From: an uncultured Eubacteriales bacterium
Lineage (GTDB): Bacteria > Bacillota > Clostridia > Christensenellales > Aristaeellaceae
DNA length: 64,000 nucleotides
Assembly (NCBI GenBank): GCA_902793325.1
Contig: CADBCY010000014.1
Span: 1-64,000 of the forward strand
Direction of reading: 5' to 3'
Made by a program: the position numbers and the translations under genes. The notes under the pieces are model-generated. The model was not told where the DNA came from. It ran no database searches and was given only the letters and a program-made list of their open reading frames with translations. Below are positions 2,607-28,902 of the stretch, in pieces (within the stretch, counting starts at the first letter, position 1; each line of letters begins with the position of its first letter).

Positions 2607-3737
2607 CTATGGATTCAGGATTTTGTATATACCCTCAATGATGGTCAAAACCTCATCTTCTGTGTTCTCGGGGCCGAAACTTACTCGTATCGTACCATTC
2701 GCATACTTCTCTGGTACACCGATTGCCTGAATAACATGAGATACTGTTGTCTCTTTTGAATTGCAGGCAGATCCTGTGGCAATAGATATTCCCATAAGAT
2801 CAAGACGATGCAACAACACCTCACCACTGGCGTTCCCAAATGACAGACTGACATTACCTGGAATGCGGTTCGTTGAACCATTCTCAATAAAGTCCAGCCC
2901 CTTTGCGCGCAATCCATTAATAAACTTCTTCTGAAGCAGATTGAGATAGCGCGCTTCAGCATCTAATTTCCCTATATGTTCTTTTAATGCTGCGGCCATT
3001 CCAACGATTCCAGCTACATTCTCGGTTCCAGGGCGCATTCCACTTTCCTGCCCGCCACCATGTATCAGCGGTTCCAACGCTACACCATTGCGCACGTATA
3101 AAAAGCCAATCCCCTTCGGGCCATTGAATTTGTGCGCGGAGGCTGAAAGCAAATCGACATTAAGAGCTTTCACGTCAATCGGAACATGGCTGACGGCCTG
3201 AACCGCATCCGTATGGAAAACCGCGCCGTTGGCATGTGCGATTTCTGCCAATGCCTTCACGGGCTCAATGGTAGCGATCTCGTTGTTGGCAAGCATAATC
3301 GAGACCAATGCGGTATCAGGTGTCATGGCCGCACTCAACTCGTCACATTGGATAACTCCATCACGCTCCACCGGTAATTCAGTCGTCGAAAATCCATATC
3401 GTCTCAGAGCTTCAAAAGAATGCAGGACAGCATGGTGTTCGATCGAGCTCGTAATAAAGCGTTTCTTCTGACCCAAGAATCGAAGCGCAATACCTTTGAT
3501 GGCCAGATTGTCCGATTCGCTGCCGCCAGATGTAAAGTATATTTCGGAAGGGTCAGCATTGATTGCTTCCGCGATCAGGGCACGCGCATCATTTATAGCC
3601 CTGCGCGGCTTGCGAGCAAGGCTGTATAAGGTCGATGGGTTGCCATATTCCTGTTCGAGAAATGGCCGCATCGCATCCAAAGCCGTTGGACTGAGCGGCG
3701 TTGTTGCCGCATGATCCGCATAGATCACGAACTTCAT
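2607..3737 (-). CDS. Cysteine desulfurase (IscS/NifS/DndA-like), BREX-operon encoded
   Basis: This is a 376-residue PLP-dependent cysteine desulfurase. It opens with YADHAATTP, has the ESDNLAIKG substrate region and the PLP lysine K203 in SASAHKFNGPKG. The catalytic loop cysteine C326 lies in ATGSACNS. Such enzymes take sulfur from cysteine as a persulfide and pass it on. This is the last gene of the BREX operon, 13 bases after the four-cysteine gene and far from any Fe-S or tRNA thiolation gene. Its most likely job is therefore to feed sulfur to BrxP, as DndA/SspA feed DndC-type proteins in phosphorothioation systems. It could instead only help assemble the BrxP Fe-S clusters. Confidence 0.9.
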   Translation of the reverse strand: MKFVIYADHAATTPLSPTALDAMRPFLEQEYGNPSTLYSLARKPRRAINDARALIAEAINADPSEIYFTSGGSESDNLAIKGIALRFLGQKKRFITSSIEHHAVLHSFEALRRYGFSTTELPVERDGVIQCDELSAAMTPDTALVSIMLANNEIATIEPVKALAEIAHANGAVFHTDAVQAVSHVPIDVKALNVDLLSASAHKFNGPKGIGFLYVRNGVALEPLIHGGGQESGMRPGTENVAGIVGMAAALKEHIGKLDAEARYLNLLQKKFINGLRAKGLDFIENGSTNRIPGNVSLSFGNASGEVLLHRLDLMGISIATGSACNSKETTVSHVIQAIGVPEKYANGTIRVSFGPENTEDEVLTIIEGIYKILNP

Positions 3738-3750
3738 GAGCTTTCTCCTT

Positions 3751-3963
3751 TCATTGGAATAGAATGCAGCCGTCCTCTTTGAACATTTGGATCTTCTCCT
3801 CTATTTCCTCAGGAGTTACTTCAAGGTAAGCTGACAAGCAATCGATACAGTAACACTCTTTCGTTTCTTCGCCCAACAGCTTTTTACTGATTCCAATCTC
3901 ATCCTTAGTCAGCGGGAATTTGGCGCATGATGTACATGCAACTCGTGGTGTTTGTTTTCTCAT
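3751..3963 (-). CDS. Small four-cysteine (zinc-ribbon-like) protein of the BREX operon
   Basis: This 70-residue protein has a CxxC pair at C10/C13 and another at C39/C42, with an extra C37, followed by an acidic helical tail. The arrangement suggests a zinc ribbon or a thiol/sulfur-relay site; I do not recognise a named family. The start codon overlaps the brxL stop (ATGA), implying coupled translation. A longer upstream in-frame extension lies wholly inside brxL and was rejected. Its place between brxL and the cysteine desulfurase makes a role in sulfur handling or in regulating the desulfurase plausible, but this is inferred from position only. Confidence 0.7.
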   Translation of the reverse strand: MRKQTPRVACTSCAKFPLTKDEIGISKKLLGEETKECYCIDCLSAYLEVTPEEIEEKIQMFKEDGCILFQ

Positions 3964-5432
3964 TGGAGCATCCCCTTGACACGAATATCCGGGACGGACT
4001 TTCCCGCTTCTTTTGCATCCGCAAATCCCTTCTGCATTATAATGATTCCTCTCATCTGGAGCGCCGGCTGCAAACAATAGGTATCAAAATCAAAAGGCGA
4101 TATGTCTTCTGCTGAGCGCACATTCGGAAACAGGATCTTCAGGAAAGCAGAGCAGATCCTCTTCACCGCCTCTGTGTCACGGGTATTTGCTTTCTCAGGC
4201 ACCTCCAACATATCCTCGACAACAACCCTGTAAGAAGGATCATCTCGAAGCTCATGCATGATCGTCGAATAGTATTCCGAGTTAAGCGCCCAGCCCTTCG
4301 CTTTCATGTCTTCATTCATTATCGGCAGCTCCCACCCCTTGATGAATCCATGAAGGCGCTCCAGGAAAGGTGTCTTGTGGAACGGTTCCGGCAATTCCGC
4401 AAACATGTTCCTATACTCATTTTGGTTTTCACCAATAATGTTTCCAAGGAATACAATGCCTGCATCAATGTTCACTTCATGTCCGTCGGCTGTTTTGAAC
4501 TTTTTGTTCTCCATCATTTCCTGAAGCGCAGAATGTAATTCCGTATCTTTCATATAAACAGCTTCACGGATCTCATCCAGCGCGACATAATCCTTGTACG
4601 CTACAACGCCCTCAGTCTTTGTCCTCTTGTTATAAATCAGTTCTGCACGCGTGGACTTTCCAGAAACGAGCCACCCATACCGGCTGACTTGGCCAAACAA
4701 ATAGGATTTGCCGGTTCCAGGAGGTGCGAGCTCGATCAGATTCAAGTTCTTTTCCACAAACGGAAGTAGCCTTTGAAGCATAGCGAGCTTCTGTGATAGA
4801 CCATCATAGCCTTTGGGATTATAGTCGATCGCACCAAGGACAATGTCCACCCACTCTTCCAATGAGAACATTTCCCGGGCGTCTTTAAACTCGTCCAAAT
4901 CAATGCTATAAGGGCAGAAGCCCCGGTAATTCAGCAATTCTATCCGCCCATATTTGCAAGTCTCTGACGGGTACATATAGCCAAGTTCGACCGTTCCCCA
5001 GTTCTCCTCTGAGCGAAGCAGATCATCCGAACATCTTTCCCATACTTCCGGGGTTATTACAGTTTCCTTATAACCAAGGCCAAAGTCAGGCATGGCAAAA
5101 GACACTGTTTGCGTTTTCACATCAATATTGACAGAAATACGCGCAACCAGTTTTACCCTTTCGTTTTGTGTAACGATGCGGTTCTGGATCGCTTTCCACT
5201 GATCTTTCTTGGGAATAAACTCATGGATAAAAGCTGATGCTTCTTCCATGTCTATCTCGCCGGTATCATCCTGAAATCTCTTCAAGACCCAATCTCGTAA
5301 GAAGGAGGGCAGCTTGAAAGACGAGACGATGTTCCCCTTGGAAAGGTCTTTATAGACCACCATTTCGTCAAACGCATCCATCAACCGTTCCTGAAGCGGC
5401 GCAGTATATTCATTGTAAGTCATAGTGCTCAC
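3960..5432 (-). CDS. brxL: BrxL-like AAA+ ATPase of type 4 BREX (short form)
   Basis: The 490-residue protein has a conserved N-terminal region and a Walker A motif PPGTGKS at 237-243. These are followed by the BrxL-type stretches KTEGVVAYKDYVALDEI and VFLGNIIG (Walker B/sensor region). BrxL proteins are DNA-binding AAA+ rings required for BREX defence; the type 1 form carries an additional C-terminal Lon-like protease domain. Here the protein ends soon after the ATPase module, so the Lon-like part appears missing, whether natural to this type or lost. It follows pglZ by six bases and overlaps the next gene by four. The order pglZ-brxL matches type 4 BREX. Confidence 0.85.
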   Translation of the reverse strand: MSTMTYNEYTAPLQERLMDAFDEMVVYKDLSKGNIVSSFKLPSFLRDWVLKRFQDDTGEIDMEEASAFIHEFIPKKDQWKAIQNRIVTQNERVKLVARISVNIDVKTQTVSFAMPDFGLGYKETVITPEVWERCSDDLLRSEENWGTVELGYMYPSETCKYGRIELLNYRGFCPYSIDLDEFKDAREMFSLEEWVDIVLGAIDYNPKGYDGLSQKLAMLQRLLPFVEKNLNLIELAPPGTGKSYLFGQVSRYGWLVSGKSTRAELIYNKRTKTEGVVAYKDYVALDEIREAVYMKDTELHSALQEMMENKKFKTADGHEVNIDAGIVFLGNIIGENQNEYRNMFAELPEPFHKTPFLERLHGFIKGWELPIMNEDMKAKGWALNSEYYSTIMHELRDDPSYRVVVEDMLEVPEKANTRDTEAVKRICSAFLKILFPNVRSAEDISPFDFDTYCLQPALQMRGIIIMQKGFADAKEAGKSVPDIRVKGMLQ

Positions 5433-5438
5433 CTCTTA

Positions 5439-7760
5439 TCAGAAGTCATCATTGATCTTCGTAGATCTCACTGCATCAAATGCAAGCGTTTCAATCTTTT
5501 TGCTTCCATCAAAGACTTCTGCCTCATAATGACCTTTTCGCTTAATATCCGGCATGGCAAACAGTACATTATGCTTGTCCCCTTCAAACGTGCCGAGATA
5601 AGAAATACCACGAATGACCATGCGAGGCTTTTTTAGCGGCGGGTTTGCATACAGACTGATTCGGCTCCCGTCTTTGGCACTGCACTGAACAGTATCATTT
5701 GGGAAGAATATCTGCTGTTCCTTTGGCTTTGCCGTCAGTGTAATAATTGGGACAATGGTCTCCTCCAGTGTTGCACCACCATGCGTTTCCACATCAGCCT
5801 TTCGGCTACCCTTAAAGCGTTCGTAGTTTGCCAGCACTGCAAATCCTGTTCCCGGATCATAATAAGCAAATGGAATTTCAGGATCATGGTCGCACGGACA
5901 GCAGCGTCCGCTGTGCTTTCCTTTCTCTGCAAGTTCCAACTTTTCGTTTTCGCTTTCACGTATTACAGCCAAACGACTCGCTCCATGGTCGGACAGCATG
6001 ATTACCTTCTGACAAGTCCCTGCTCTGAGCCAGGAAGAAAACTTTTTCAGGGATTTGTCCAGGAGCGTCAACTCATCGAAGATGTGTAATGGCTCCTTTG
6101 TCAGCTGATAGTCATATAGCGTTCCTTCGTGCTTAATATCGTCAAGTCCGGACTCCTTCCGTATGCTGTCCTCAGGAAAGGCACTATAAAATTCCTTGTT
6201 GAAGCAAGTAATGGAAGGGAGGTTACAGTGTGCAATCTGGCAATCGAATTGCATGTCGTATTCTTCACATTTCGCTTCAATATAAGCAAGGTATTCAGCG
6301 CCCAAAGCATCAAAGAAAATGGGGATAGCACCCTCCTTATCCATCTTCTTCACGATACCTGCCCGCACCTGAAGCCGAGTGAAGCTCCTTTTCACCGCTT
6401 CATCTTCGACAATTGACATAAATTCAGGATCAATGCGGTTCGACAGTTTTTGCAATTTGTACCGGCAAAAATAATCTGTCAGCAAAGTCCGAATATAGGA
6501 GTCAGACTCCAGCACTTTTGTATTGAAGGTATCGAAAACAAACCCTCGTAGGTATAGTGCAAGTTGAGGGGCATTCTCGCACAGTATACCCTGGAGCTCA
6601 TCCGCAGGATAGTTATACGTGCAAATCGCATGGATGATTGCCGCCCGTTCCTCCTCTGTGCTATCCGTCAGAGCAAAGAGTATATCCCTACCATAAATCG
6701 TCGCTCGATCGCAGTAGTCTTGCATCAATGCATGGTTTTCGTCCAGGCTCTGCAACAATCTGCGACGCTCACGAATCCAAAGCTTATACTGTGGAGCGGA
6801 GACTGGAAATGAAAGTATTGTATCATACAGCCGTTTTTCCAAATCATCTGCGCCACCACAACGCTTCAGGCATTCCGACAGATAGTTCCTTTCGGAAGAG
6901 CAGAACACCTTTAAAGCAATATAACACAGGAATCGGTTTTCTGGATCTGCAATAGCTTCTCCAAAGCTCTGTGGAAGCTGCCCAATGCTGCCCAGCTTTT
7001 GTGCGCAGAATTCAGCAAACGGTACGCCCTTCAGAGCTTTGGCGAGATCACCCCACTGTGTCTGGCTGCCGTCAGTTTCCTGTGTGAATGCTTTGATCCC
7101 AGGTTCACGCTCACAGAGCATTTCATATACGCTGATGCCTTTCGACAGAGGAAACATAGAAGCAGTTAACCATGCTTCCCTACAGGTACTGACCAAAGCG
7201 AGCTTGCGCGCTGTCGTTCCATTTTCCAGAAGTCGCATTAAGGCTTTCATTCCGATCAGCGGCTTGGCTTCGGGGCATACCCCTTTCTCAGCATACAGGC
7301 GAATGGAGGGAACGCTCTTATTCGGCGATGGGATCAAAACGAACCAATGGCCGAGTTTTGCGTATCGGTTTCCGATTGCCTCCAGCACACTGCACAGATA
7401 TGGGCATAGTACAATAACCGGCCTTGAGAAATTCATTCCGGCCAGCGCAATCAGAAAATCCTCCGTTGCCTTCTGGCTGTTGAGCATGACTGCTTGGGAC
7501 GCACCCAACCATACCACAGTGCTCGTTTTTGCGGCGTCTGAAACCTTTCCCACAAGAAGGTTGGGATTTGGTGGAAACTCCCCCGTACAGCTGTCACTGA
7601 CCCGCAGGATCGTTTTATCCTGATCTCCTGTCAGGAATCCCAATACCTGCACATAGTCCTCAGTTGCATCGACCCCGAGGATCAACGGAGCGCCGGTAAA
7701 ATGCTCAATGTATGAGGAGACTTCCCGCAGTCCCACATGATAATCAGCGCAAATTCTCAT
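5439..7760 (-). CDS. pglZ: PglZ (BREX alkaline-phosphatase superfamily protein)
   Basis: The 773-residue protein carries the PglZ domain in its second half. FFDALGAEY at about 482-490 is the metal/nucleophile region, and VIMLSDHGASRL near 586-598 is the conserved SDHG metal ligand block. PglZ is the one protein present in all BREX types; it has a phosphatase/nuclease-like fold and is needed for both host marking and phage exclusion. The N-terminal half has no motif I recognise and contains many cysteines. It is the middle of the tightly packed operon, 11 bases after brxC and 6 before brxL. The reading frame is uninterrupted. Confidence 0.92.
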   Translation of the reverse strand: MRICADYHVGLREVSSYIEHFTGAPLILGVDATEDYVQVLGFLTGDQDKTILRVSDSCTGEFPPNPNLLVGKVSDAAKTSTVVWLGASQAVMLNSQKATEDFLIALAGMNFSRPVIVLCPYLCSVLEAIGNRYAKLGHWFVLIPSPNKSVPSIRLYAEKGVCPEAKPLIGMKALMRLLENGTTARKLALVSTCREAWLTASMFPLSKGISVYEMLCEREPGIKAFTQETDGSQTQWGDLAKALKGVPFAEFCAQKLGSIGQLPQSFGEAIADPENRFLCYIALKVFCSSERNYLSECLKRCGGADDLEKRLYDTILSFPVSAPQYKLWIRERRRLLQSLDENHALMQDYCDRATIYGRDILFALTDSTEEERAAIIHAICTYNYPADELQGILCENAPQLALYLRGFVFDTFNTKVLESDSYIRTLLTDYFCRYKLQKLSNRIDPEFMSIVEDEAVKRSFTRLQVRAGIVKKMDKEGAIPIFFDALGAEYLAYIEAKCEEYDMQFDCQIAHCNLPSITCFNKEFYSAFPEDSIRKESGLDDIKHEGTLYDYQLTKEPLHIFDELTLLDKSLKKFSSWLRAGTCQKVIMLSDHGASRLAVIRESENEKLELAEKGKHSGRCCPCDHDPEIPFAYYDPGTGFAVLANYERFKGSRKADVETHGGATLEETIVPIITLTAKPKEQQIFFPNDTVQCSAKDGSRISLYANPPLKKPRMVIRGISYLGTFEGDKHNVLFAMPDIKRKGHYEAEVFDGSKKIETLAFDAVRSTKINDDF

Positions 7761-7771
7761 GTTTATCCCTC

Positions 7772-10700
7772 TTAATGCTTTTGCTTCTTAAGGATGGCTA
7801 TGCCGACGTCCATGTTCTCCTTGATCAAATCCTTGAGGTATGCACGCACATCATCCAGGTCAAGATCATCAATGGCTCTCTGTGCCATGGAGGCGCCGCC
7901 AGTCTTATACTTGTTTTCAGCCCGCATCTTAATCCCATTCCTAATGGAACGATTATCCATCCAGTCATATGGATGAATCATAGAGAAATGGTTCCTTAGA
8001 TAATTCCGGGTGTCGTCCATATCCGGAAGCAAATACGCATAGTCTTCAACAACGCGCAGCCGCATACATTCATCCCGGCTTTCCTGAGAGGCAAGCCTGT
8101 CATAGAAATCTCCTTTTTGTAGATACGACATCACGCTTTCTGCCTCATCGGAGCCAAGGTTGCTCTTGCGGAATGCATCGAAGGCTTCTGCTGCCCTTGC
8201 GCGCTCCACGTCGTCAAACATGCACAGAATCGGCGTTCCATACATGCTTGACCATTCCCGTGGATTACTTGTCCCCGTCTTCTCACGCCAGATTTGCTCC
8301 AACCTGGCCTTCGTCTTTTCTTTCAAGAACCGTTCCACTTGCACCTCAACGGCCTTGAAATACTTTTCGGCAGAGTCTGTATATACGTCTGTATCCAGAT
8401 AATTGGAAAACAGCTCGTCGATGTCTTCGTCTGAAAGCTCGGTCAGCCAACCTGCCGCGATCTTCTTGAACATCTCCTGCTGATGCCGATAGAGCGAAAC
8501 AAAATCGTTCTTCTGTTTCTGAAGCAGCTCCAGGAACCGCGCCTTCTTCATCTCTGGAATTGCATTCTCGGGCGACCGTTTGATGCTGCACAGCAACCCC
8601 AGCAGCTCCTTCAAGTCACCACATTCCGTCTCCATCGCTTCATAGCTAAGGCGGAAATTGCGAAGCCGATCCTTCCAGTTCCGAACGCAAGCCGTCAAAG
8701 ATGCAGCCGGCGCAATGATCGAGTTGCTCTCTGCTACGATGCTATACTCAATGATCACCTCGTCAATCTTCGCCCGTGCAGTCTCTTCAGACCAGACCCA
8801 ATTGGCTTCGTCAGCGTTGAACTTTTTCTTGACTTCGTTTATATAGGCTCCGCCATCCTTGATGTTTGCAGCCAGTACGGGCAGCTCGCCTGAACGATAA
8901 TCATCGAGGTAAGCCCGCATACCAGCCCTGCAATTCTGTGAAGTCAGCAACGTCTCGAGGTCTTCCTGCAATGATGGTTGTGCCATGAGCAGCTCGCCGA
9001 TCTCGGTGGCCAGGTCGCTCTCTGTCGTCTTCTGCGTAAGATTCCGGATATTGGCAATGCCAAGATATTTGTCAACAACATCGGCAATGATCGCGGTGTC
9101 CGTTTTCACTTGTGCTGTCGGCAAGAGACTCTTCAGGCACCAGATGGGGAACTCCATCTTTTTCATGCCAACGCGTATGACGCTTGCCGCGGCATCCACA
9201 GAACCACAGTGCTCCGGCTGTTCATGGAAGAGAGACGCCGTCGCGGACAGGAACCTTCTCAGCTTATCGCTCATGAGCACGATGGCCTCAGGGCGATAAT
9301 TGGGTTTCGGGGTGACGGACTGATCCAGCGCATTCTTGATCGCGCCCTTCATCAGCTCCACGCTCATTGGCCGCGTCGTACCATTGGACCAGAAGTACTG
9401 TTCGTTCGCGTATTCCTTCAGCACAAATCCCAGAACAAATGCCGACAGGTTTGATGCTGTGAAACCAAAGGGCACCTTCTGAAGCTCTTGATAGATATCG
9501 ATAATGTCGATCCGGCCATTCTTGTCAAAGCCCTTGGCAATCAGCTCTTCCACGCGCTTCTTGATTTGTACAATGACGAGGCCCTGCTTGGAAGGATCCT
9601 CCCAATAGTTTCCTTCAACCTTCCACGCGCCAGAAAGCGCCGTGGATAGCTTGGTCTTGACGTTGCTTGAGGTGAACGCACCCTTTTCAACCTGTGTAAT
9701 GCCGCACTCCGCACCGAGGCCCATCGAGATGCGCGAGAACATCGTCGGATTCACATTATACTGTTCGATCCCAAGAGGATACATGCTGTGGTCTATTTCG
9801 TTCAGAAGCTCACAAAGGGCCTCATAACCCATCCGCATCTGCCCATTGGGATGCTTCGTATCGTACAGGCGGAATTCACCGCTTCGCAGGACATCCACCC
9901 AGGTTGCAATGTTCTTCGCGGCGTAGGCAGAGAATTGTCCTGATTGCCGCTTGTCACTCTTGAGATAGTACTCGCTGTACGCCTTATTCGTCAGATAGTT
10001 ATCCAGATACGGACTGAACGTGCTTGTAGAAGCATCCAGCAGCAACAGGTTCTCCGGCAGCTCTCCGCGCATCTGGTTTTGAATCTGTTTCCCGATGTCT
10101 GCGCGTTCATCATCGGTCATCGCCACAATAATGCACAGCTGAAAAGTCCCCGGAGCGTTCTGAGCCCTGGTCTTTGCCTCGCGCACAGCATTGTTGAAGG
10201 TCTGCGAACTGTTGAGGTTCGTGAACATCAAAGCAGTATTGAAGTGCCCGGCCAGGTTGTCCGGCACTTTCAGTTTCTGCAGTAGATCCGCTTCCTGCGC
10301 AATGCTTTGGGCAGAAATCTGTTCCCTGACGCGCTTCTTGGTGTCCATAATGTCCACGCCGCCGCCGGCCTTGGGAATAACGCGCATCGTATCGCCTTCG
10401 CCCGTGGGCTCCTCAAACAGTACCGGCTGGAGCGGCGGTTCCCGGTGTACCAGGGACTTCGCGATATTTGAGGCTTTCCCCTGAGGCCAACTGGTTCCCA
10501 GGAAGGAGAGGTCGATGTTCTCATAGGTAGGTACCAGCATACTCGCATCCTTGACGCGGGTACATATGGCGTTCATCAGCAGCACGGTTCGCAATACACG
10601 CTGTTCATCCTTGTTGAGGTGGTACTCACTGCTGAGCGTTTCAAAATTGTTCAGGATTTCCAAGGCGTCAGGATTCATATTCCCGCCGGCCTTCGTATTA

Positions 10701-12079
10701 AAGAAATCCCACAGCATATCCACCGTCATCAGATTGTCCGGGCCAAAGGCGCTGTGATGGTTGATGAACCACTTGAAGGCTCGCGTTTTCAGTGTGCCGT
10801 CTTCAGCTTTGCGCAATACCTCATCTTCTTCTGGATCGCGGGCGATGATGAAGTCGAACATGCTGCGCTGGCTGGCTGTGAATACACGGGAAATATGCTT
10901 GAGGATCAACGCGGCATAGGGATGCAGCGGCACGATCTCCTGGAGATCCGCATCGCTGAGCGCGCCTTTCTGGCCGCTCCGCTTCACTGACGTCGTTATG
11001 GCATTGCGCACTGACGCCAGACGAACGTTCAGAGCCTGCTTGGCCTTGTGCCATTCGTCGCGCATTACCGGGTCATCCGTTTCCTTCATTGCCTGTGCCA
11101 TGAGACGGAAAGCCATATTATCGGGCAACTCGATACGAATAGAAGGTTCGATAAAGCGATTTTTAATTTTGATTCTATCCGCAGTGTTGGTGATCAGTGC
11201 CTCACTCTCATGGGTAACCAGCACAAAGTAGAAAGGACTGTCTTCACTGATCTGTGCCAAGGTCTGGAAGCCCGTCAGGGAATTCTGACAATTCCTGAAG
11301 AACTCAGAAAACTCATCCCAGATAAACACAATAGATCCAAGGTGATTTTCAGCAATGACTTTTCGAATCCAGTCCGCCAGCATCGGCGCGTCCATCTTCA
11401 GGAAGGACATATTATTATCGCGGCCCAGGCGAATGAGCTTCGTCATCAGATACTGAATCGAATCCGCATTCCCGCTGTTTAAGGCATCGATCAATTGGTC
11501 TGCATTCATGCCATTGAATTCAAAGGCATCATCGCTCAGGAGGGCATTCAGATACTGTTTGTTGGCCGCCTTCTCGTTGAGCCACTTGATCAGCGCATCT
11601 TTCAGGGTGCCCTCGGCGTGATTCTCTATGCCTCGTTCTGCCAGAGCACGGGAAATGCTGCTCTGCACCGCCCACACCAGGTCGTCATCATTTTTGATAT
11701 TGGAGGAACCAATGCGATGGATGACGATGAGAGGCCCGTTCATCTCCTCGCTGCGGGCCGCGAGGAAGTGATTGCACAGATCCTCGCTCAGTTTGAAATC
11801 ATCAAAGTAGCGGCGCACCTCCGCTTCCGGTGCCTCCAGCAGGCTTTTTACCGTCAGCGCAGCATGAGATTTACCGGTACCGAAGATACCTTCAAACCAT
11901 ATGCCACGGGATTCCTTGCCGGAAAGCATATCTACCACCTGACGCAGCAACTGGATGAAGGTCTCGTGAGGATAGAAGGCATCCCAGCGCACTCTGCCCT
12001 GGTCGATGAGTTCTTTGGTAACTACGGCATAGTATTTTTCATCAGTATTGAAATATTGCTTGTAACTCGTTGCCGGCAT
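7772..12079 (-). CDS. brxC: BrxC/PglY-like large P-loop ATPase of BREX
   Basis: The protein has 1435 residues. Walker A is GIFGTGKS at 64-71 and the Walker B-like segment is IVFIWDEFSEF at 250-260, with VLVTHESE downstream as a sensor-like strand. Size and layout match BrxC/PglY, the largest ATPase of BREX systems, which is needed for modification and defence. The long C-terminal part is helical with charged stretches, probably a scaffold. The gene lies between brxP (15-base gap) and pglZ (11-base gap) in one operon. There are no internal stops, so it looks functional. Confidence 0.9.
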   Translation of the reverse strand: MPATSYKQYFNTDEKYYAVVTKELIDQGRVRWDAFYPHETFIQLLRQVVDMLSGKESRGIWFEGIFGTGKSHAALTVKSLLEAPEAEVRRYFDDFKLSEDLCNHFLAARSEEMNGPLIVIHRIGSSNIKNDDDLVWAVQSSISRALAERGIENHAEGTLKDALIKWLNEKAANKQYLNALLSDDAFEFNGMNADQLIDALNSGNADSIQYLMTKLIRLGRDNNMSFLKMDAPMLADWIRKVIAENHLGSIVFIWDEFSEFFRNCQNSLTGFQTLAQISEDSPFYFVLVTHESEALITNTADRIKIKNRFIEPSIRIELPDNMAFRLMAQAMKETDDPVMRDEWHKAKQALNVRLASVRNAITTSVKRSGQKGALSDADLQEIVPLHPYAALILKHISRVFTASQRSMFDFIIARDPEEDEVLRKAEDGTLKTRAFKWFINHHSAFGPDNLMTVDMLWDFFNTKAGGNMNPDALEILNNFETLSSEYHLNKDEQRVLRTVLLMNAICTRVKDASMLVPTYENIDLSFLGTSWPQGKASNIAKSLVHREPPLQPVLFEEPTGEGDTMRVIPKAGGGVDIMDTKKRVREQISAQSIAQEADLLQKLKVPDNLAGHFNTALMFTNLNSSQTFNNAVREAKTRAQNAPGTFQLCIIVAMTDDERADIGKQIQNQMRGELPENLLLLDASTSTFSPYLDNYLTNKAYSEYYLKSDKRQSGQFSAYAAKNIATWVDVLRSGEFRLYDTKHPNGQMRMGYEALCELLNEIDHSMYPLGIEQYNVNPTMFSRISMGLGAECGITQVEKGAFTSSNVKTKLSTALSGAWKVEGNYWEDPSKQGLVIVQIKKRVEELIAKGFDKNGRIDIIDIYQELQKVPFGFTASNLSAFVLGFVLKEYANEQYFWSNGTTRPMSVELMKGAIKNALDQSVTPKPNYRPEAIVLMSDKLRRFLSATASLFHEQPEHCGSVDAAASVIRVGMKKMEFPIWCLKSLLPTAQVKTDTAIIADVVDKYLGIANIRNLTQKTTESDLATEIGELLMAQPSLQEDLETLLTSQNCRAGMRAYLDDYRSGELPVLAANIKDGGAYINEVKKKFNADEANWVWSEETARAKIDEVIIEYSIVAESNSIIAPAASLTACVRNWKDRLRNFRLSYEAMETECGDLKELLGLLCSIKRSPENAIPEMKKARFLELLQKQKNDFVSLYRHQQEMFKKIAAGWLTELSDEDIDELFSNYLDTDVYTDSAEKYFKAVEVQVERFLKEKTKARLEQIWREKTGTSNPREWSSMYGTPILCMFDDVERARAAEAFDAFRKSNLGSDEAESVMSYLQKGDFYDRLASQESRDECMRLRVVEDYAYLLPDMDDTRNYLRNHFSMIHPYDWMDNRSIRNGIKMRAENKYKTGGASMAQRAIDDLDLDDVRAYLKDLIKENMDVGIAILKKQKH

Positions 12080-12094
12080 GGGTGCCTTCCTCCT

Positions 12095-14479
12095 TTACAA
12101 CAGCTGCAGTATGTCTTCGGCGTGCCTGTCTCTTTGCAGTGTGATCGTCTCCAGGCTCATCACGAAAGAAGCGGAAATATAATCCGTATAGTTCATGGCC
12201 AGACCGTTCAACAGGCGGATCATCGTTTCCCGATCCAAACCGAATATCGTGGTGGGGGAGACTCCTTCGCGCTCTATAGACTCATCCATCAGATAGGATA
12301 GGGTAAATTGATAGTAGTCACACTTCTCCGCAAACTTGTAAAGCGCGTAAAGGATCACTTCCGGGATCGGGGTAGTCCAAGAATGTCGCATTACAGAACT
12401 CATGGTCACTTTTTCTTCTCCATTGCTCTGTACTTTCACGGCAACATTAGGAATTCCAATTCCAATATCTGAAAAATATTGGTTTGAATGGAGAATCACC
12501 TTTATCCCGTTCCAAAATTCACCCTGTGTCTTTTTCCGTGTTTTTTGCTCCTTCTCTGAATATCGCAGTTCTTCTTCAATAGGGAAGATATCTTTTTGTT
12601 CAGTCTCTACATCGAATCCCACATGATCAATGTAGTATTTAAAGGGCGGTTTATAAACTAAGTTTACAGCTGCGCACGCCCAGCATGCAGCCAAACTGTT
12701 TAAGTCTCCACTTTCGACTGCCATCTCTAACTTGTCACCCAGGGGTAAAATGTTCTTCTTTTTATCAACTATTCCGGCATCTTGCATGAATCCGAACATT
12801 ACATCGGTCTTCCTATTGCCAGGCTCTTTAGAATGATCGGCTAAGTATTCATAAACCCACTCTGCATTTACTCCAACACTTAGATACTTGTTGATACCAG
12901 TAATGCTGCTATTCATCGTCGTGCTCCCCCTTATAGAATGATAGTAAATACAACAATCCGAAATGCTGTTGATTTTCAGACAGGAATGACATCTATTGCA
13001 CTTGTCCCCTATCTTTAGTAACCCGCCTTCCATACTGATGTTGTGTTGAGGACATTCTGCTTCGCAAGCGCGACAGTATATACAATACTGTGACTTCGTT
13101 AATACAGCACGGAAGTACGACATAAAGTCGATAAGGTTCTTCCCTTGCTGTTTTATTTCTATCGTGTAGGTATTATCATCTATAATACACTTCCTCTTTA
13201 CTCCAGCATACTCCAAAATGTAAGACTCACCATCAAAATCAAGCGATCCTATGGTTTTATACCATATCTTCCAGTTCGGGTTCAGCTTCTTGACATAGTA
13301 AACAACACTATCTTTCTTTAGTTCAAACCATACCCTTTCATTTTCCTTGATAGCAAGCTCACGTCCACTGAATCTCGTTTTCCATCCACCAATATCTAAA
13401 AACAATTTGGCATTGCTTCCAGAAAGATCTTTTCCGCTTGTTTCCACAATGATATTACAGTAGTTATCAACCAAGTCACGAAAATACTGTCTCTTGATAT
13501 ATTCGTGTTTCTCAGATGAGTTGGGGCACATTATGCAGCCAACCCTGTTAAATCCCATTTTGTAAGCTTCATTAAATGGAAGCTTGTATCTATATAAATA
13601 CAGATATATTTCTGCCGAAGACCAATCAAGAATCGGATGAAAGCTGTACTGTCCTGCCAGCTTCTTGCCTTCGCTGAATTCTTCATATCCAGATCTGGCT
13701 GCGCTCTCTTCTCCACGCACACCAGTAATCATGATAGTCCGTATTTTTTCCAATCCATATTCTTGATATATGGCATTTATAACAGGCGCTGTTTTTCTTG
13801 TTGTGCAGCACCACCTTATACGTCGTGAAGGAGGTCCAAATACACGCCAAGAATTTTCAGCTGTTGTTTTTGCGCTTGCCTCTATATACTTAATGCCGTT
13901 CTTTGCACAGTTATTTGCGATAGTATCACAAAGTGCAAGCGTCGTTGGAAACTCCATACCCGTATTGCCAAAAACCACGATAAACTCGTTGTTAGATAGG
14001 GTCCTTTGAACCAAATCCAACGTAACTACACTATCCTTGCCACCGCTGAATGCGACATACGTAACATCCGTGCTGCCCTGATAGTTTCTGACATTTGCAT
14101 TAATAGATCGAACCGTCAATGTCTCAAGCTCGTCCATAATTTCTAGATTTTCAGGATGATTAATCATTCCCTCAATATCAACAGGTTTAAGCGTCGAACC
14201 AACGGGTTCGCCATCTTCGTTTTCTGTGTAGATTACTTCAGGCGCAGTATATAAGCTGCCTCCCTTTGTCTTGGCAATGACACGGCCTTTATAGATATAG
14301 CGCTCCGCCTCCGCCCACATGATCGGGGCGTCGTCATTCTGAGGATAGGACCAGCGGCGATCCATCCCCAACAGATTCATTTCCCGATAATAGACCGGGC
14401 GCGGCTCATTGCTGCTTTTGCTCTGCTGTGGTTTGAGCAGTATCCCGCCCGTTTCCGGGTCCCATTCGTACTGATGCAC
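12095..14479 (-). CDS. brxP: BrxP: PAPS-reductase/ATP-pyrophosphatase domain protein with ferredoxin-like cysteines
   Basis: The protein has 794 residues. The PP-loop SGGKDS lies at 145-150 in VAFSGGKDSVVTLDL, followed by FGNTGMEFP. The CCTTRKT block at 224-230 and CIMCP at 315-319 complete the PAPS-reductase/DndC-like core. Residues 466-500 contain CxxCxxCxxxCP and CxxCxxC runs, typical of two [4Fe-4S] clusters. A C-terminal domain of about 280 residues, rich in aromatic residues, has no family I can name. BrxP defines type 4 BREX. DndC-type proteins activate the DNA backbone with ATP for sulfur insertion, so a similar reaction is inferred here. It is translated four bases after the giant upstream gene. 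Confidence 0.9.
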   Translation of the reverse strand: MHQYEWDPETGGILLKPQQSKSSNEPRPVYYREMNLLGMDRRWSYPQNDDAPIMWAEAERYIYKGRVIAKTKGGSLYTAPEVIYTENEDGEPVGSTLKPVDIEGMINHPENLEIMDELETLTVRSINANVRNYQGSTDVTYVAFSGGKDSVVTLDLVQRTLSNNEFIVVFGNTGMEFPTTLALCDTIANNCAKNGIKYIEASAKTTAENSWRVFGPPSRRIRWCCTTRKTAPVINAIYQEYGLEKIRTIMITGVRGEESAARSGYEEFSEGKKLAGQYSFHPILDWSSAEIYLYLYRYKLPFNEAYKMGFNRVGCIMCPNSSEKHEYIKRQYFRDLVDNYCNIIVETSGKDLSGSNAKLFLDIGGWKTRFSGRELAIKENERVWFELKKDSVVYYVKKLNPNWKIWYKTIGSLDFDGESYILEYAGVKRKCIIDDNTYTIEIKQQGKNLIDFMSYFRAVLTKSQYCIYCRACEAECPQHNISMEGGLLKIGDKCNRCHSCLKINSISDCCIYYHSIRGSTTMNSSITGINKYLSVGVNAEWVYEYLADHSKEPGNRKTDVMFGFMQDAGIVDKKKNILPLGDKLEMAVESGDLNSLAACWACAAVNLVYKPPFKYYIDHVGFDVETEQKDIFPIEEELRYSEKEQKTRKKTQGEFWNGIKVILHSNQYFSDIGIGIPNVAVKVQSNGEEKVTMSSVMRHSWTTPIPEVILYALYKFAEKCDYYQFTLSYLMDESIEREGVSPTTIFGLDRETMIRLLNGLAMNYTDYISASFVMSLETITLQRDRHAEDILQLL

Positions 14480-14483
14480 GGTG

Positions 14484-17400
14484 TCAAGTCCTCCTGTCTT
14501 TGACGCGCGCTACAATCGCGTCGATGCGTTTGTATCTGTAGTATTCCTGATAGCCGCCATCCACCAGAAGCTGTAATGCGTCCGCTGTGGTTGTCCAGCC
14601 ATCGGAATCGATGAGTATCTGCTCTACCAAATCCTTATACTCTTCTATGCCGCAGCCCCGCCGGACGATTGCGCCGAAGTAGCCGCTTTTTGACAGGCTG
14701 CGATAGCAAAGCATAAACCGCTTGCTGAACGCAAACAGATAGCTGTAGAGCAGGTATTTGTTCCAGGGATAGCCACAGGCCGGCAGGTGAAACAGCAGCG
14801 CGTCGGGCAGTTGCTTGAGACCTTCATATTTCCCCGGGCAAAACTCTTCAAGTATGGCATCGATGGCGGCAACATCAAAATGAATGTTGTTTCGATTGAC
14901 CAGTTCCTCCTGATTGATGCGCACCGCTTCCTGCAGGACCGTTTCCCAATAGATACCCGTGCCATTTTCATTGGCGACAGCTTCCAGTTCGCCCAACGTG
15001 AAGCGATCCCTTTCGCGAGCAAAGGTTGCGAATTGATCGTTGATATTGATCTTCTCGCCTCGAGCTGTGATGATGGTCGCGGTAAAGCTGAAACGATCCG
15101 ACAGGTAATAGCGGAGCAGATTGATCAGCGCCATGTTTTCATAAGGCGCGAGATCATCAGCCATGCCGGGAAGCTCACGCTGAAGCAATCCTTTGATTTC
15201 ATTCGAGCGCACCATCGGCTTGACTTCCAGCTCGCGCATGATGACGTCTCCGATGGTTTGCACATCCTCCGCGTCGATGGGAAAATGCTCGGCAAGCAGC
15301 CAGCGCCCCATACCGATGCGGATGATATCCGGGCAGGCGTTGATTCCGGCATTGACGCCATCCTCTGAGATAAACCACAGCGTTTCGCACAACTCTTCCC
15401 GGGTCGTTTCTCCACCACGTGCACGCATGACCTTTCGGCAGTCCTCCGACTGCCTCGCGGTGTGCCCTGGCCTGACATAAACCTTATAGCGCTGTTCAAA
15501 CCTCCCGTTGGCATGGCCTGCCAACGCCTCAATCATGGCATCCATAGAATAGACGCTTTGCTCCGCCAGCGCTTTCTCATACTTCTCGTAGATACGAGAT
15601 GGGTAGACGCAGGTATAGGTCGCCAGAATGCCATCGATCTCAGCACATATATCGTCCAACAGTGCGCTTGTATCCTCGTCTTTGGCATAGATGCGATCAT
15701 CCCGCCGTACACCAATAGCGGTAAAAGCTGCGTCGATATTGTCACCGGACAAGGGGCAGGGCGAACCGTATATTTCCTGCCATTGGGCATCCGCCTGCAT
15801 TTGGCAAATGAAATCGCCGGGGATGTAGCCGTCTGGGAAGCCTTCCTTCAATACCCGCTGCCAACGGTCGTCTACTTGCTGTTGCGGCTGCTCCGTTTGA
15901 GTTTGGCTCGACACCCCTGTGTTGTTGCTTGCCGGCGTGTCTGAGGTTCCCACAGGAGCGTTTTGTTCCCGGAACAAGGCATAGTACTGTATTGCACTTC
16001 TATATTGACTAATGCGCGCATGGCTATAATCACCCGAGAGTTTCAGCTTTGAAAAGCATTCGCGAATGATCTCTGGCCTTTCTGTCAGCAAGGAGAAGGA
16101 ACTGTCTCCATCTCGAAGTATGCGGTCTGCTGATGATAATGCCTGGCGGTATATCTTCCCAACAGTCCTCGACAGTTTGCGATCGTTTACAAGCCAATCC
16201 TCAAAGCCCTTTATTAGCTTATCTGGATTATCCTGCGTAATCGGCATCACACCCTTATCAGATATAGCGATCTGTACGTCCGATACTGGCTCAGGTGGCG
16301 TCAATTCTATTTCTTTTCCTTCATCCTCCCTCGGGATATAGCCAATAACGATGTCCTTCGGGTTGACGCCACAACCTTGCGCAACCATAGTTGCTTTTCG
16401 CATCAGGTCAGTAGCGCTAAGATTGATTTCTACCACAGTTCCATTATCCAGGTAACCCGGAACACGAATACTGCCCTGCTTTTTAAAAGCAGCTCGAAGG
16501 GCAGCTTCAAAGCGGGTCTGAAACTTTTCAGACAAGTAGTTTAGTAACCACAAATAGACTCTCTGCCAGAATTTCGCATTTTGCAGGGTCTCGCCGTCAT
16601 AGTCACAATAGACCGGTTTGCAAAAAGCAAAATTATTCTTTGCTGAAAGATCCGTTTTTGAGACTGCCTTTTGCTCATACTGCTCTTCGTACTGACCGGT
16701 GCGTTCCTTCATTGGGCGATATCCCACAATGACACTTCGTACTGGTACGCCGCAGATGGCGATCGCGCCAACCAAGCGCCGCATAAGCTCTGTAGCGCTG
16801 TACTGTACGCATATGACAGAACCATTTTCCAACACACAGGTTGCTCCGGTATGATCGCTAAGTCCCCGTTGCTTTTCAAGGACAATCTTGAAAGCCTCCG
16901 GATGCGTTCGCAGCAGCTGATTCATTGTCCAAATGTACGCACCTCGCCATGACGATGCCGCAGAATAGCGCACCCCCTCAATCTCCAGAAAATCAAACTG
17001 GCAAAACGAGAAGTCATTGGACTTCGACAGATCCGTCAGGCATATATCCTGTAACCGCTCTTCCGACAGACCGGAAGCAAGCCGAGCTGACGGTTCCGCA
17101 TCGCCACCATTATCATGGTCTTTTTCTTCACCCGGTTCGTTCAATCCGGAATGCGAATCCACCTCACTTGGAGCAGCTTCTTTTGAATCGTTCGTTTTTT
17201 CTCCCTTGGTCGTTTCATCACCCTTGCGGTTTGACTTGGCAGCAACTGTTGCCGGCGCTACAACATTTGCAGTGCTACTCAACTCCTTGCAACGGTTGCA
17301 TATCCAAATAGCGTACTTGTCCGCATCTTCCGTCTTCATCTCAGGATCGATAAAAGCGTTGATTCCCGTGAGCCTGAGCATCTTTCCACTCGAATCCCAT

Positions 17401-19154
17401 TGATGCAACACAACCGGCCGAAGCCCCTGATAAGGCGCATTCACCAATTTGCGCATTTCAGCGGGATACTTTCTGACATAGCTGTCACAGAACAGCAAGA
17501 ACGCCTGGGCGGGTGTCGCTCCGGTATAGCTATTCTCTGCTACTGTAATCGTATGTTCCTTTTTTACGGAAGGAACACCAAGAGATTTTCCTGTTTCAGA
17601 AAGGCGACGATACATCCTTGCCCGAAGATCCTTGTGATAGATATTGTGGCGATTCATGAAATCCCACAAATCGAGCGCATTGAATTGATCTATAGTAAGG
17701 ATACCTTCACGCAGCAGAATGCTCCGAAGAGGCGCATATTCAACGCCTGCAAGACGATTCTGCAAGTCTTCTTCCAAAGACTTAGCAACCATCACAGTCG
17801 TTTTTCCTTTGTCATTCTTTTTTGTCGTGTTATCATCTGATTTCGGCGTAGGAATCTCACGGTCAGATTTTGCCCTGGTCGCGCTCTCCGTTTCATCTTC
17901 AACCAGATACCATGCCGTTTTGTTTTCAGTGCTTCTTCCACCGCCCGGACAATACTTAAAAGTGTAGCCGTTATTCCGAGCCTGCAAGATGAAATCTGCA
18001 TGCTCCATACCGCCGATCAACCATAAGACTCCTCCCTGCTGCCGCTTGTCAACATAGGGGAGGCGCTTTAGCTCCAACAGACCGACAATATCCTTCGGCT
18101 CTTCTTCTATCGGCTGTGTTTTTATTCCAGCCACAGTTTGTCCCTTTTGCGTATCGTAAGCTTGGGGTTCAGAAGCTTCCTTACTCTGATTTGCCGCAAT
18201 CCCGGCCTTCAACATCTCGAGGTATTTCTGAACAGCAATTACGTACTGTCCTCGGGCTTTCCGATTCTCTTCAACAAAACGATGTTCAGACAACAGCTTA
18301 CTGAAGACTGCCAATGCGTCAGCATGGTTCTCAGCGCCGTACAGAGAATTCCCGGATATGTCCATATCGCGCGCGATCTTTTCGCTCTTCTGAAGTGCGC
18401 GAAGATTCTCGTTGATTGAAAGGGCATTGTGGCCCTTTGAACGAAGATACGCAACATATCTTTCTTCAACAGAATAGGAAGTGACACCATTTCCCTGTTG
18501 TCTTGGCTTCTCGACCTTTTCCGGAGTGATACTGCTCTGTTGTCTCTCTTTCAGGAATTGGGCATAATACCGCAGTCCAGAGGACATGAGTTTCCCCTGT
18601 TTATGGCTATAGTGACGAAAAACGCGGCTGAATTGCCGAGAGGATTCAATCTGCTCGACAGCGGAAGGATCGTCAATAGTAAAGATGCTTCCTGAAATGA
18701 GCTTATTAGAAACGCAATACTCATTGGCATCTGACATGGCAGCATAATAATCCGAAAGCTGCGAAGTGGATACGCGAGCAGCAAGCCATTTGAAGAAAGC
18801 ATCATCAATGGACTTCATTTGATCGACCACGGACAGCGCCTCCTTCAATATTTTTCGATATTCAGCAGGCCTTTGGGTATAGATCTCATACATCTGGCGG
18901 ATTAACGCAGACGCACCAGACAACCCCATCTGACCATTCGTAAAGAGATACTGAACATCCCACAGTTGCATTTTCATGCCATTGACGTTGCGATAGGTTT
19001 CATCAATTTCGAGTCCTGCTCGCAAAGCCATGGTGCGCAAGGTTTTTGACAAATCCTCTGCAACTCGATTCAATCCTGCTCCAGCGGCAAACTCTTCGTA
19101 TGCGCGAAACAGGAGTGCAACTTCATGTTGACTCCAAGCGATACGCTTTGCCAT
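14484..19154 (-). CDS. 1556-residue multidomain protein heading the BREX operon (unrecognised family)
   Basis: I do not recognise a named family for this very large protein. Residues 1-110 form a helical domain (WSQHEVALLF, NGMKMQLWDVQYLFTNG). Two copies of a SAM-like helical unit lie near 228-318 and 983-1066. A compact glycine-rich domain occupies about 360-420 (GGVLWLIGGMEHADF, CPGGGRSTENKTAWYL). Two clear repeats at about 706-815 and 834-945 each end in NG..V....SAT-L-MR...CGV....VIGY-P; a weaker third copy may lie at 526-620. Low-complexity linkers separate the domains. The C-terminal 430 residues resemble the tails of some large sigma-like/HTH proteins. It has AGGAGG at its start, lies directly after the operon promoter and ends four bases before brxP. 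It is thus co-expressed with BREX, perhaps as target-recognition, scaffold or control protein. Confidence 0.75.
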   Translation of the reverse strand: MAKRIAWSQHEVALLFRAYEEFAAGAGLNRVAEDLSKTLRTMALRAGLEIDETYRNVNGMKMQLWDVQYLFTNGQMGLSGASALIRQMYEIYTQRPAEYRKILKEALSVVDQMKSIDDAFFKWLAARVSTSQLSDYYAAMSDANEYCVSNKLISGSIFTIDDPSAVEQIESSRQFSRVFRHYSHKQGKLMSSGLRYYAQFLKERQQSSITPEKVEKPRQQGNGVTSYSVEERYVAYLRSKGHNALSINENLRALQKSEKIARDMDISGNSLYGAENHADALAVFSKLLSEHRFVEENRKARGQYVIAVQKYLEMLKAGIAANQSKEASEPQAYDTQKGQTVAGIKTQPIEEEPKDIVGLLELKRLPYVDKRQQGGVLWLIGGMEHADFILQARNNGYTFKYCPGGGRSTENKTAWYLVEDETESATRAKSDREIPTPKSDDNTTKKNDKGKTTVMVAKSLEEDLQNRLAGVEYAPLRSILLREGILTIDQFNALDLWDFMNRHNIYHKDLRARMYRRLSETGKSLGVPSVKKEHTITVAENSYTGATPAQAFLLFCDSYVRKYPAEMRKLVNAPYQGLRPVVLHQWDSSGKMLRLTGINAFIDPEMKTEDADKYAIWICNRCKELSSTANVVAPATVAAKSNRKGDETTKGEKTNDSKEAAPSEVDSHSGLNEPGEEKDHDNGGDAEPSARLASGLSEERLQDICLTDLSKSNDFSFCQFDFLEIEGVRYSAASSWRGAYIWTMNQLLRTHPEAFKIVLEKQRGLSDHTGATCVLENGSVICVQYSATELMRRLVGAIAICGVPVRSVIVGYRPMKERTGQYEEQYEQKAVSKTDLSAKNNFAFCKPVYCDYDGETLQNAKFWQRVYLWLLNYLSEKFQTRFEAALRAAFKKQGSIRVPGYLDNGTVVEINLSATDLMRKATMVAQGCGVNPKDIVIGYIPREDEGKEIELTPPEPVSDVQIAISDKGVMPITQDNPDKLIKGFEDWLVNDRKLSRTVGKIYRQALSSADRILRDGDSSFSLLTERPEIIRECFSKLKLSGDYSHARISQYRSAIQYYALFREQNAPVGTSDTPASNNTGVSSQTQTEQPQQQVDDRWQRVLKEGFPDGYIPGDFICQMQADAQWQEIYGSPCPLSGDNIDAAFTAIGVRRDDRIYAKDEDTSALLDDICAEIDGILATYTCVYPSRIYEKYEKALAEQSVYSMDAMIEALAGHANGRFEQRYKVYVRPGHTARQSEDCRKVMRARGGETTREELCETLWFISEDGVNAGINACPDIIRIGMGRWLLAEHFPIDAEDVQTIGDVIMRELEVKPMVRSNEIKGLLQRELPGMADDLAPYENMALINLLRYYLSDRFSFTATIITARGEKININDQFATFARERDRFTLGELEAVANENGTGIYWETVLQEAVRINQEELVNRNNIHFDVAAIDAILEEFCPGKYEGLKQLPDALLFHLPACGYPWNKYLLYSYLFAFSKRFMLCYRSLSKSGYFGAIVRRGCGIEEYKDLVEQILIDSDGWTTTADALQLLVDGGYQEYYRYKRIDAIVARVKDRRT

Positions 19155-19190: not shown

Positions 19191-19219
19191 AGTATACCAA
19201 CATATATACCTATAGTCAA
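19191..19219 (-). promoter_or_regulatory. BREX operon promoter
   Basis: A TTGACT -35 box and TATACT -10 box are separated by exactly 17 bases on the minus strand, about 37 bases before the ATG of the giant protein. The -10 region sits in an ACTATAGT-type palindrome. This near-consensus promoter would drive all seven genes down to the cysteine desulfurase. Confidence 0.7.
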
Positions 19220-19256
19220 AGGTTTTTTGCGGTGTTATCAATTTGTAAACCTTTGA
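19216..19256. repeat. Perfect 10-bp inverted repeat at the -35 region of the BREX promoter
   Basis: TCAAAGGTTT (19216-19225) is repeated inverted as AAACCTTTGA (19247-19256) with 21 bases between. It starts at the stop codon of the SLOG gene and overlaps the BREX -35 box. It could be a terminator stem for the SLOG gene, although there is no good T-run, or an operator for control of the BREX operon. Confidence 0.5.
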
Positions 19257-19659
19257 TCCTGTGTGCCTGATAAACGAGTGTTCGCGTGTTGCCGATGCGG
19301 CCCACATCATAAGCGATCAAATAATCACAATGATGAATCATATACTGGTTTGCCCGCAGGATTGCGGCGTGCTTTGGTACGGTTTCGAGGCCGTCAGGAA
19401 AGACGGAACCATCAACGCCATCGGGCAATGGTTCGGCGTCAGTGCGATAATAGGGCATGAGCAGCGTAAGTGTGACATCGGCATGGTTTCGCTTCACTTC
19501 CAAGACAGCGCGGGCGGCAAGACGGTCAAAGTTTCCATATCTCCCGACAACAAAGTCCGTCACACCGTATTCGGAGATATGACGCTCAACAGCCGTAAGC
19601 AGGCGGTTATAAATGCTCTCCGGCGCATCCCGATGTCCAATAAAGAAGCAGGTTTTCAA
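19216..19659 (-). CDS. SLOG/DUF1273-type nucleotide-binding protein
   Basis: The 147-residue protein begins MKTCFFIGHRDAPESI. It continues with TDFVVGRYGNFDRLAARAVLEVK and ends in HCDYLIAYDVGRIGNT. The GHR, GxxGxFD and DYLIAYD blocks match the YpsA/DUF1273 (SLOG superfamily) Rossmann-like proteins, which bind nucleotides or nucleotide-derived ligands and often occur in phage-defence neighbourhoods. A TTG start follows a GAGGAG site ten bases upstream. The gene lies directly upstream of the BREX promoter on the same strand and has its own promoter. Whether it senses a signal for BREX is unknown. Confidence 0.8.
   Translation of the reverse strand: MKTCFFIGHRDAPESIYNRLLTAVERHISEYGVTDFVVGRYGNFDRLAARAVLEVKRNHADVTLTLLMPYYRTDAEPLPDGVDGSVFPDGLETVPKHAAILRANQYMIHHCDYLIAYDVGRIGNTRTLVYQAHRIKGLQIDNTAKNL

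Positions 19660-28827: not shown

Positions 28828-28828
<1 letters not shown>
28803..28828. terminator. Bidirectional terminator between integrase and tRNA-Asn
   Basis: AAAACCACCAA pairs with TTGGTGGTTTT. Its T-run on the minus strand ends the tRNA-Asn transcript, and on the plus strand it can stop the integrase transcript. Confidence 0.8.

Positions 28829-28902
<74 letters not shown>

Follow-up and report, generated by a model that had tools for sequence, protein, structure and literature searches.

A complete type 4 BREX operon in an uncultured Eubacteriales bacterium and the conserved, predicted winged-helix protein encoded by its first gene

How a BREX (bacteriophage exclusion) system tells unmarked phage DNA from the DNA of its host is the question touched by an operon of an uncultured Eubacteriales bacterium (assembly GCA_902793325.1). 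We analysed positions 1 to 64,000 of contig CADBCY010000014.1, referred to here as the window, and all coordinates are window positions. The operon occupies 19154–2607 on the minus strand and comprises, in order, a gene for a protein of 1556 amino acids (aa), brxP, brxC, pglZ, brxL, a 70-aa gene and a cysteine desulfurase gene. Judged by its genes, the locus is a complete seven-gene type 4 BREX operon and an ordinary member of a known anti-phage system. What remains of interest is the accompanying first gene, which is missing from the published descriptions that we found; the rest adds another example of a system already in print. Taken as a whole, the explanation that we hold to be highly probable is a complete type 4 BREX with a sulfur mark, in which the first gene would provide a DNA-reading or sensing subunit. 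Gene content, order, conservation, predicted core fold and co-divergence come from the present analysis, and phosphorothioation and defence from papers on relatives.

The gaps between the seven genes, computed from the coordinates, are 4, 15, 11, 6, −4 and 13 bases in operon order. Since none exceeds 15 bases, the layout is that of one operon, and all seven reading frames are open. BrxP (794 aa, 12095–14479, minus strand, like all the operon genes) matches the PADLOC BrxP profile over residues 1–793 (E = 5e-197) and the PAPS_reduct family (7.9e-31), and the BrxC/PglY ATPase (1435 aa, 7772–12079) matches the PADLOC BrxC-PglY profile over residues 5–1431 (8.8e-192). PglZ (773 aa, 5439–7760; PADLOC 3.3e-74) is of the type 4 kind, scoring 359.7 bits against NCBIfam NF033445 BREX_PglZ_4, where the cut-off is 140. 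BrxL (490 aa, 3960–5432) matches Pfam BrxL_N and BrxL_ATPase, PADLOC BrxL (4.4e-182) and NCBIfam TIGR02688 (377.8 bits, cut-off 329.3). It is a short form without the C-terminal Lon domain, aligning to positions 4–478 of the 482-position PADLOC profile PDLC02505, and a short BrxL is the form that the accessible part of PMC12839542 describes for type 4 BREX. As the preliminary description of this DNA had stated, no methyltransferase is seen: none of the seven operon proteins, to which the scan was confined, matches such a family in Pfam, PADLOC or NCBIfam. Of the features by which type 4 BREX is recognised, BrxP, BrxC/PglY, a type 4 PglZ, a BrxL without C-terminal extension and a methyltransferase-free operon are present. 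The same description had placed brxP, brxC, pglZ, brxL and a downstream desulfurase in one operon, and all of these genes are where it put them on the minus strand. However, its gene list was incomplete, since the 1556-aa gene (14484–19154) and the 70-aa CxxC gene (3751–3963) were missed inside the span that it covered.

Comparison with known systems leads to the same assignment. The operon shares with type 4 BREX (brxPCZL) the four defining genes, the short BrxL, the desulfurase, a small zinc-finger protein and the want of a methyltransferase. The published account, in the excerpts available (PMC12839542), names five known components, BrxC, a PAPS (3′-phosphoadenosine 5′-phosphosulfate) reductase, DUF4007 and apparently BrxL and PglZ, to which it adds the desulfurase; unlike the operon in the window, these do not include a winged-helix first gene. 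The Ssp system (SspABCD) is similar in its SspA-like desulfurase, SspC-like BrxC region and SspD-like PP-loop, but the BREX profiles of PADLOC far outscore the Ssp ones (654.6 versus 29.4 bits for BrxP, 637.8 versus 47.8 for BrxC), PglZ and BrxL are present, and there is no SspB, SspE or SspFGH profile among the PADLOC matches of the seven proteins. The likeness to Dnd lies in the DndA-like desulfurase and in a DndC-like PP-loop domain in BrxP (local PADLOC match, 39.9 bits); no operon protein matches DndD, DndE or DndB in PADLOC.

The first gene product, which we propose to be a DNA-reading or sensing subunit, gave no Pfam, PADLOC or NCBIfam match at E ≤ 0.001. It is not among the type 4 BREX components given in the consulted part of PMC12839542 or in the other descriptions found, and the primary phosphorothioation paper may mention it. 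We followed it through 80 loci around BrxP homologs, the best 80 of at least 358 confirmed candidates, chosen partly by the SGGKDS motif, in which the gene order is as a rule that of the window operon. A homolog was found in 67 of the 80 by blastp with the window protein and in 74 by a profile covering its last 500 residues, to which reversed frames gave no match; 59 of these 74 loci had contributed to the alignment behind the profile, but they were originally found by blastp. Where at least 500 bases lie upstream, the first gene is present in 73 of 77 loci (L068, with a match in 154 bases, is excluded). All but two of the 74 homologs share the strand of brxP and end between −60 and 100 bases from its estimated start, the gap being larger in L112 and L118, and two frames match in each of four loci (L054, L082, L108 and L115). 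We also surveyed 396 genomes of the order, including that of the window, and 11 of them have a BrxP match of at least 580 bits. By profile or blastp, the first gene stands next to brxP in nine of the 11; in G251 only ∼690 bases of sequence are available upstream of brxP, and in G083 the upstream position holds a 757-aa open reading frame (ORF) without a match.

The protein is constant at one end and variable at the other. Lengths range from 238 to 1556 aa in 64 aligned members, some of them cut by contig ends; the C-terminal ∼460–500 aa are common to nearly all, the N-terminal ∼200 residues to somewhat over half, and the middle is variable. Conservation is highest at P1458 and W1464. An AlphaFold2 model of the last 500 aa, with a predicted local distance difference test score (pLDDT) of 92.1, consists of repeated helix-helix-helix-strand-strand units, and its best Foldseek matches (E down to 7.5e-6) are UFL1/DDRGK1, SelB, Dcc1 and RNA polymerase III subunits, known as winged-helix proteins. 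The C-terminal core is thus clearly predicted to be an array of winged helices. A sequence search of the PDB with the first gene gave nothing at E ≤ 1, and the core profile reaches E = 0.13 to RPC5. Among 48 members scanned, single ones match the RNA polymerase alpha C-terminal domain (alpha-CTD; 7.4e-27), sigma-70 region 4 (9.8e-10) and HARE-HTH (2.8e-4), and six match an integrase SAM-like domain at E ≤ 0.1. This would suggest that the winged-helix core is fixed and is preceded by DNA-binding parts that can be exchanged.

Relatives of the first gene also occur away from type 4 BREX. The core is matched at E ≤ 1e-6 in 15 of the 396 genomes, seven of which have no BrxP match of at least 580 bits. 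Nine places away from brxP were fetched (L219–L227, with L220 and L222 being other contigs of brxP-bearing genomes), and the neighbours were scanned in five. In L223 (G230 contig 10) the relative heads a Dnd/Pbe-type operon, lying between a WYL regulator and PbeA, which is followed by PbeC/DndD-like and DndC genes. In L219, L225 and L226 it adjoins genes of the PADLOC candidate system PDC-M33, with a type III restriction enzyme also present in L226, and in L222 the single scanned neighbour is a leucine-rich-repeat protein. Four of the five scanned places thus link the family to defence, and the link is not limited to sulfur. There is, in addition, a likeness to PglW of type 2 BREX, in which, according to the excerpts of PMC12839542, the kinase is followed by winged helices and a domain like the RNA polymerase alpha-CTD. 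The non-BREX relatives in L219 (6.5e-8, at 806–876) and L222 (2.7e-4, at 796–931) match the PADLOC PglW profile, as does one BREX first-gene member at E = 0.0053. Unlike these, the window protein has no PglW match, and the domain scans gave no kinase or NERD nuclease domain in the first gene.

We then compared pairwise distances over 41 operons with all seven genes, the window included. The distances of the first-gene core correlate with those of BrxC at 0.94 and of PglZ at 0.92, close to the value for BrxC and PglZ themselves (0.93), and with BrxL at 0.72, BrxP at 0.67 and the desulfurase at 0.39. The partial correlation of the first gene with BrxP given BrxC is 0.02, compared with 0.88 for the first gene and BrxC given BrxP. 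The nine Mantel tests each reached p = 0.001, the lowest value that 999 permutations allow, and the contrast therefore lies in the sizes of the correlations. Within the 27 operons of the larger BrxC cluster, the correlations of the first gene are 0.95 with BrxC and 0.55 with BrxP. This co-divergence fits a first gene product that may work as a machine part with BrxC and PglZ.

On the side of the sulfur mark, BrxP has an SGGKDS core at residues 145–150 and eight ferredoxin-like cysteines at 466, 469, 472, 476, 494, 497, 500 and 510, both as noted before. The motif, which was partly used in picking the loci, is kept in all 81 aligned BrxP sequences (the 80 loci and the window), and each of the eight positions is cysteine in 79–81 of the 81 rows. 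Four further cysteines, C224, C225, C315 and C318, are present in all 81, and their CC...CxxC spacing is reminiscent of the [4Fe-4S] site of assimilatory APS (adenosine 5′-phosphosulfate) reductases. The PDB matches of BrxP at E ≤ 0.001, three in all, are the PAPS reductases 6vpu (1.6e-6) and 4bwv (2.1e-4) and the APS reductase 2goy (1.4e-4). The C-terminus (residues 705–791) gives a weak DUF4007 match, at E = 0.0032 and under the Pfam cut-off. As far as the available portions of the two papers go, type 4 BREX was termed phosphorothioation-based in 2026 (PMC12839542), and dnd, ssp and brxPCZL are the genes behind phosphorothioate synthesis (PMC11931770). By analogy with these relatives, the host mark here is probably phosphorothioate. 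The preliminary description, which had suggested a BREX with a sulfur mark, thus agrees with the publications on relatives, but the mark in type 4 BREX, while supported, was already known, and two genes of the operon had been overlooked.

The cysteine desulfurase (376 aa, 2607–3737) is DndA/SspA/NifS/IscS-like, with nearly equal PADLOC scores for DndA (6.9e-132, 438.2 bits) and SspA (1.6e-131, 437.1 bits). It falls under every NCBIfam cut-off listed for it (NifS, DndA and IscS equivalogs), scoring for instance 338 bits against 480 for DndA TIGR03235 and 435.9 against 530.75 for NifS TIGR03402. The pyridoxal phosphate (PLP) lysine was correctly given as Lys203, within SAHKFNGPKG, but the catalytic cysteine, previously numbered 326, is Cys325, within GSACNSKE. 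A search beside other type 4 BREX loci, suggested earlier, found the desulfurase adjoining the operon in 36 of 50 relatives with room for it; the enzyme is dispensable in cis. Its distances track those of the other genes weakly (r = 0.24–0.39 for the five large genes and 0.46 for the CxxC protein), and this, together with the adjacency count, fits replacement by housekeeping desulfurases. Housekeeping sulfur donors probably exist in this genome, because it has eight aminotransferase V family matches, two of them partial and the desulfurase included. In a tree, 41 locus desulfurases and that of the window grouped apart from four in-genome paralogs (support 0.983), which is weak evidence, the comparison being limited to those paralogs. 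Pairing of a desulfurase with type 4 BREX was considered as a novelty and rejected, being already published: the accessible text of PMC12839542 reports the enzyme in 255 of 457 taxa and regards it as a possible sixth core component.

It could be argued that the desulfurase serves only the assembly of iron–sulfur (Fe-S) clusters in BrxP and is not the donor of the mark. The 12 conserved BrxP cysteines, the ferredoxin-like eight and the CC...CxxC set, speak for this, and DndA can reportedly assemble DndC as an Fe-S protein, if the title of one study is a guide. Nevertheless we regard such a restricted role as rather unlikely, for the donor and Fe-S roles can both hold, and the desulfurase is the sulfur donor in the Dnd/Ssp models as presented in the part of PMC12839542 at hand.

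For the path of sulfur in this genome and the part played by the first gene, we infer the following. The desulfurase, or a housekeeping one, would mobilise sulfur from cysteine, and BrxP, a PP-loop enzyme with likely Fe-S sites, would place it in the host DNA backbone at sites that its DUF4007-like part and its partners help to choose. Incoming unmarked DNA would be blocked by the BrxC ring, PglZ and BrxL, and the 1556-aa winged-helix protein would be tied to the BrxC–PglZ core as its DNA-reading or invader-sensing subunit, which is the most likely role for it. More broadly, we tentatively suggest, at somewhat less than even confidence, that type 4 BREX has an overlooked core subunit. It would be a rapidly diversifying protein whose winged-helix core is fixed while its DNA-binding parts can be swapped, would read DNA or sense phage for BrxC–PglZ, a task that in type 2 BREX may fall to the C-terminal half of PglW, and would have been shared with Dnd/Pbe and other defence operons.

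Several points weigh against these proposals. The first gene is missing in G083 and in four loci that have 500 or more upstream bases (L098, L100, L113 and L114); among the six loci without a match the upstream sequence amounts to none in L102, 166 bases in L111, 557 in L100 and 10,000 in each of L098, L113 and L114. In the smaller BrxC cluster (14 operons) the contrast is weak (r = 0.88 with BrxC versus 0.81 with BrxP), and distance correlations do not prove contact, as similar rates can also produce them. The Foldseek template modelling (TM) scores are low, 0.08–0.23 by query among the 50 matches listed, so that the fold class is clear but no single structure stands out as a functional homolog. 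Since relatives also lie beside the non-sulfur candidate PDC-M33, the first gene is not restricted to sulfur marking. Finally, the support for this genome comes from its genes, with chemistry and phage defence carried over by analogy from relatives.

A different role, that of a transcriptional regulator of the operon and not a machine subunit, would suit the first position of the gene and the DNA-binding-type folds, including the alpha-CTD-like and sigma-70 region 4-like parts of single relatives. We consider it unlikely, as the protein is large for a regulator (at least 458 aa in 62 of the 64 aligned members), lies 4 bases from brxP and diverges in close step with BrxC and PglZ.

The 70-aa protein (3751–3963), read from the sequence as CxxC...CxxC with a GCxLF tail, likewise lacks a Pfam, PADLOC or NCBIfam match at E ≤ 0.001, and its start codon overlaps the brxL stop (ATGA). 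Its AlphaFold2 model has a pLDDT of 84.7, and C10, C13, K28, C39, C42, G65, C66, L68 and F69 are invariant in 19 aligned sequences. The gene adjoins brxL in 56 of 59 loci with at least 400 bp, including loci where no desulfurase follows; the three scored without it include L047, whose match in a longer overlapping frame fell to the distance rule. In L229 it stands before brxL rather than after. A small zinc-finger protein is mentioned as a frequent companion in the excerpted type 4 BREX account (PMC12839542). The place of the gene between brxL and the desulfurase, and the fifth cysteine, in the tail, invariant in all 19, might suggest a dedicated sulfur carrier from the desulfurase to BrxP. 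This is improbable, given that the gene is retained where no desulfurase follows it, that 36 of the 45 order genomes with CxxC relatives have no BrxP match of at least 580 bits, and that only four of 38 fetched places lie behind brxL (L271, L272, L273 and L288). The idea was largely rejected, as the relatives in these 45 of 396 genomes mostly stand elsewhere. The neighbours read in eight places (L256, L261, L269, L275, L277, L279, L280 and L290) resemble, from their motif, GH27 alpha-galactosidases, not sulfur genes, and so give the family a second genomic setting. In L263 a desulfurase-like gene lies several genes away from the CxxC relative.

That the operon has decayed or fallen silent is very improbable: it sits on an apparently mobile segment with an integrase and a relaxase (ORFs read by eye), but all seven frames are open, and in the five proteins for which family profiles exist the matches span almost the full length.

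The surroundings of the operon were also inspected, with ORFs read by eye. A MobA/MobL-like relaxase (25620–27143), a tyrosine integrase (27229–28626) and a tRNA-Asn (28828–28902, minus strand; ARAGORN) lie side by side, and no attachment repeat of the tRNA-Asn region of at least 13 bases was found inside the window. The BREX operon is probably on an integrated mobile element. Elsewhere, a BrxP relative and the first gene occur together on three IMG/VR contigs binned as viral (L119, L120 and L123), which suggests proviral or mobile carriage. On the same strand, 61 bases upstream of the operon, a 147-aa ORF (19216–19659) reads like a SLOG/DUF1273-type nucleotide-sensing protein. Downstream, positions 85–2512 appear to form a small defence island with a macro-domain and YbiA-like fusion (85–1152), a MazG-like ORF (1557–1883) and a Fic/Doc gene with a Phd-like partner (1893–2512).

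The new content is thus one more member of type 4 BREX, with the conserved first gene as the point of interest. Its divergence runs closer to that of BrxC and PglZ than to that of the sulfur enzyme, a hint that reading and restricting may form a module of their own, separate from marking. The first gene is also a single target whose loss can be examined. If it is needed for marking, heterologous operons with brxPCZL only would fail; if it is needed for restriction only, such operons would mark but not protect.

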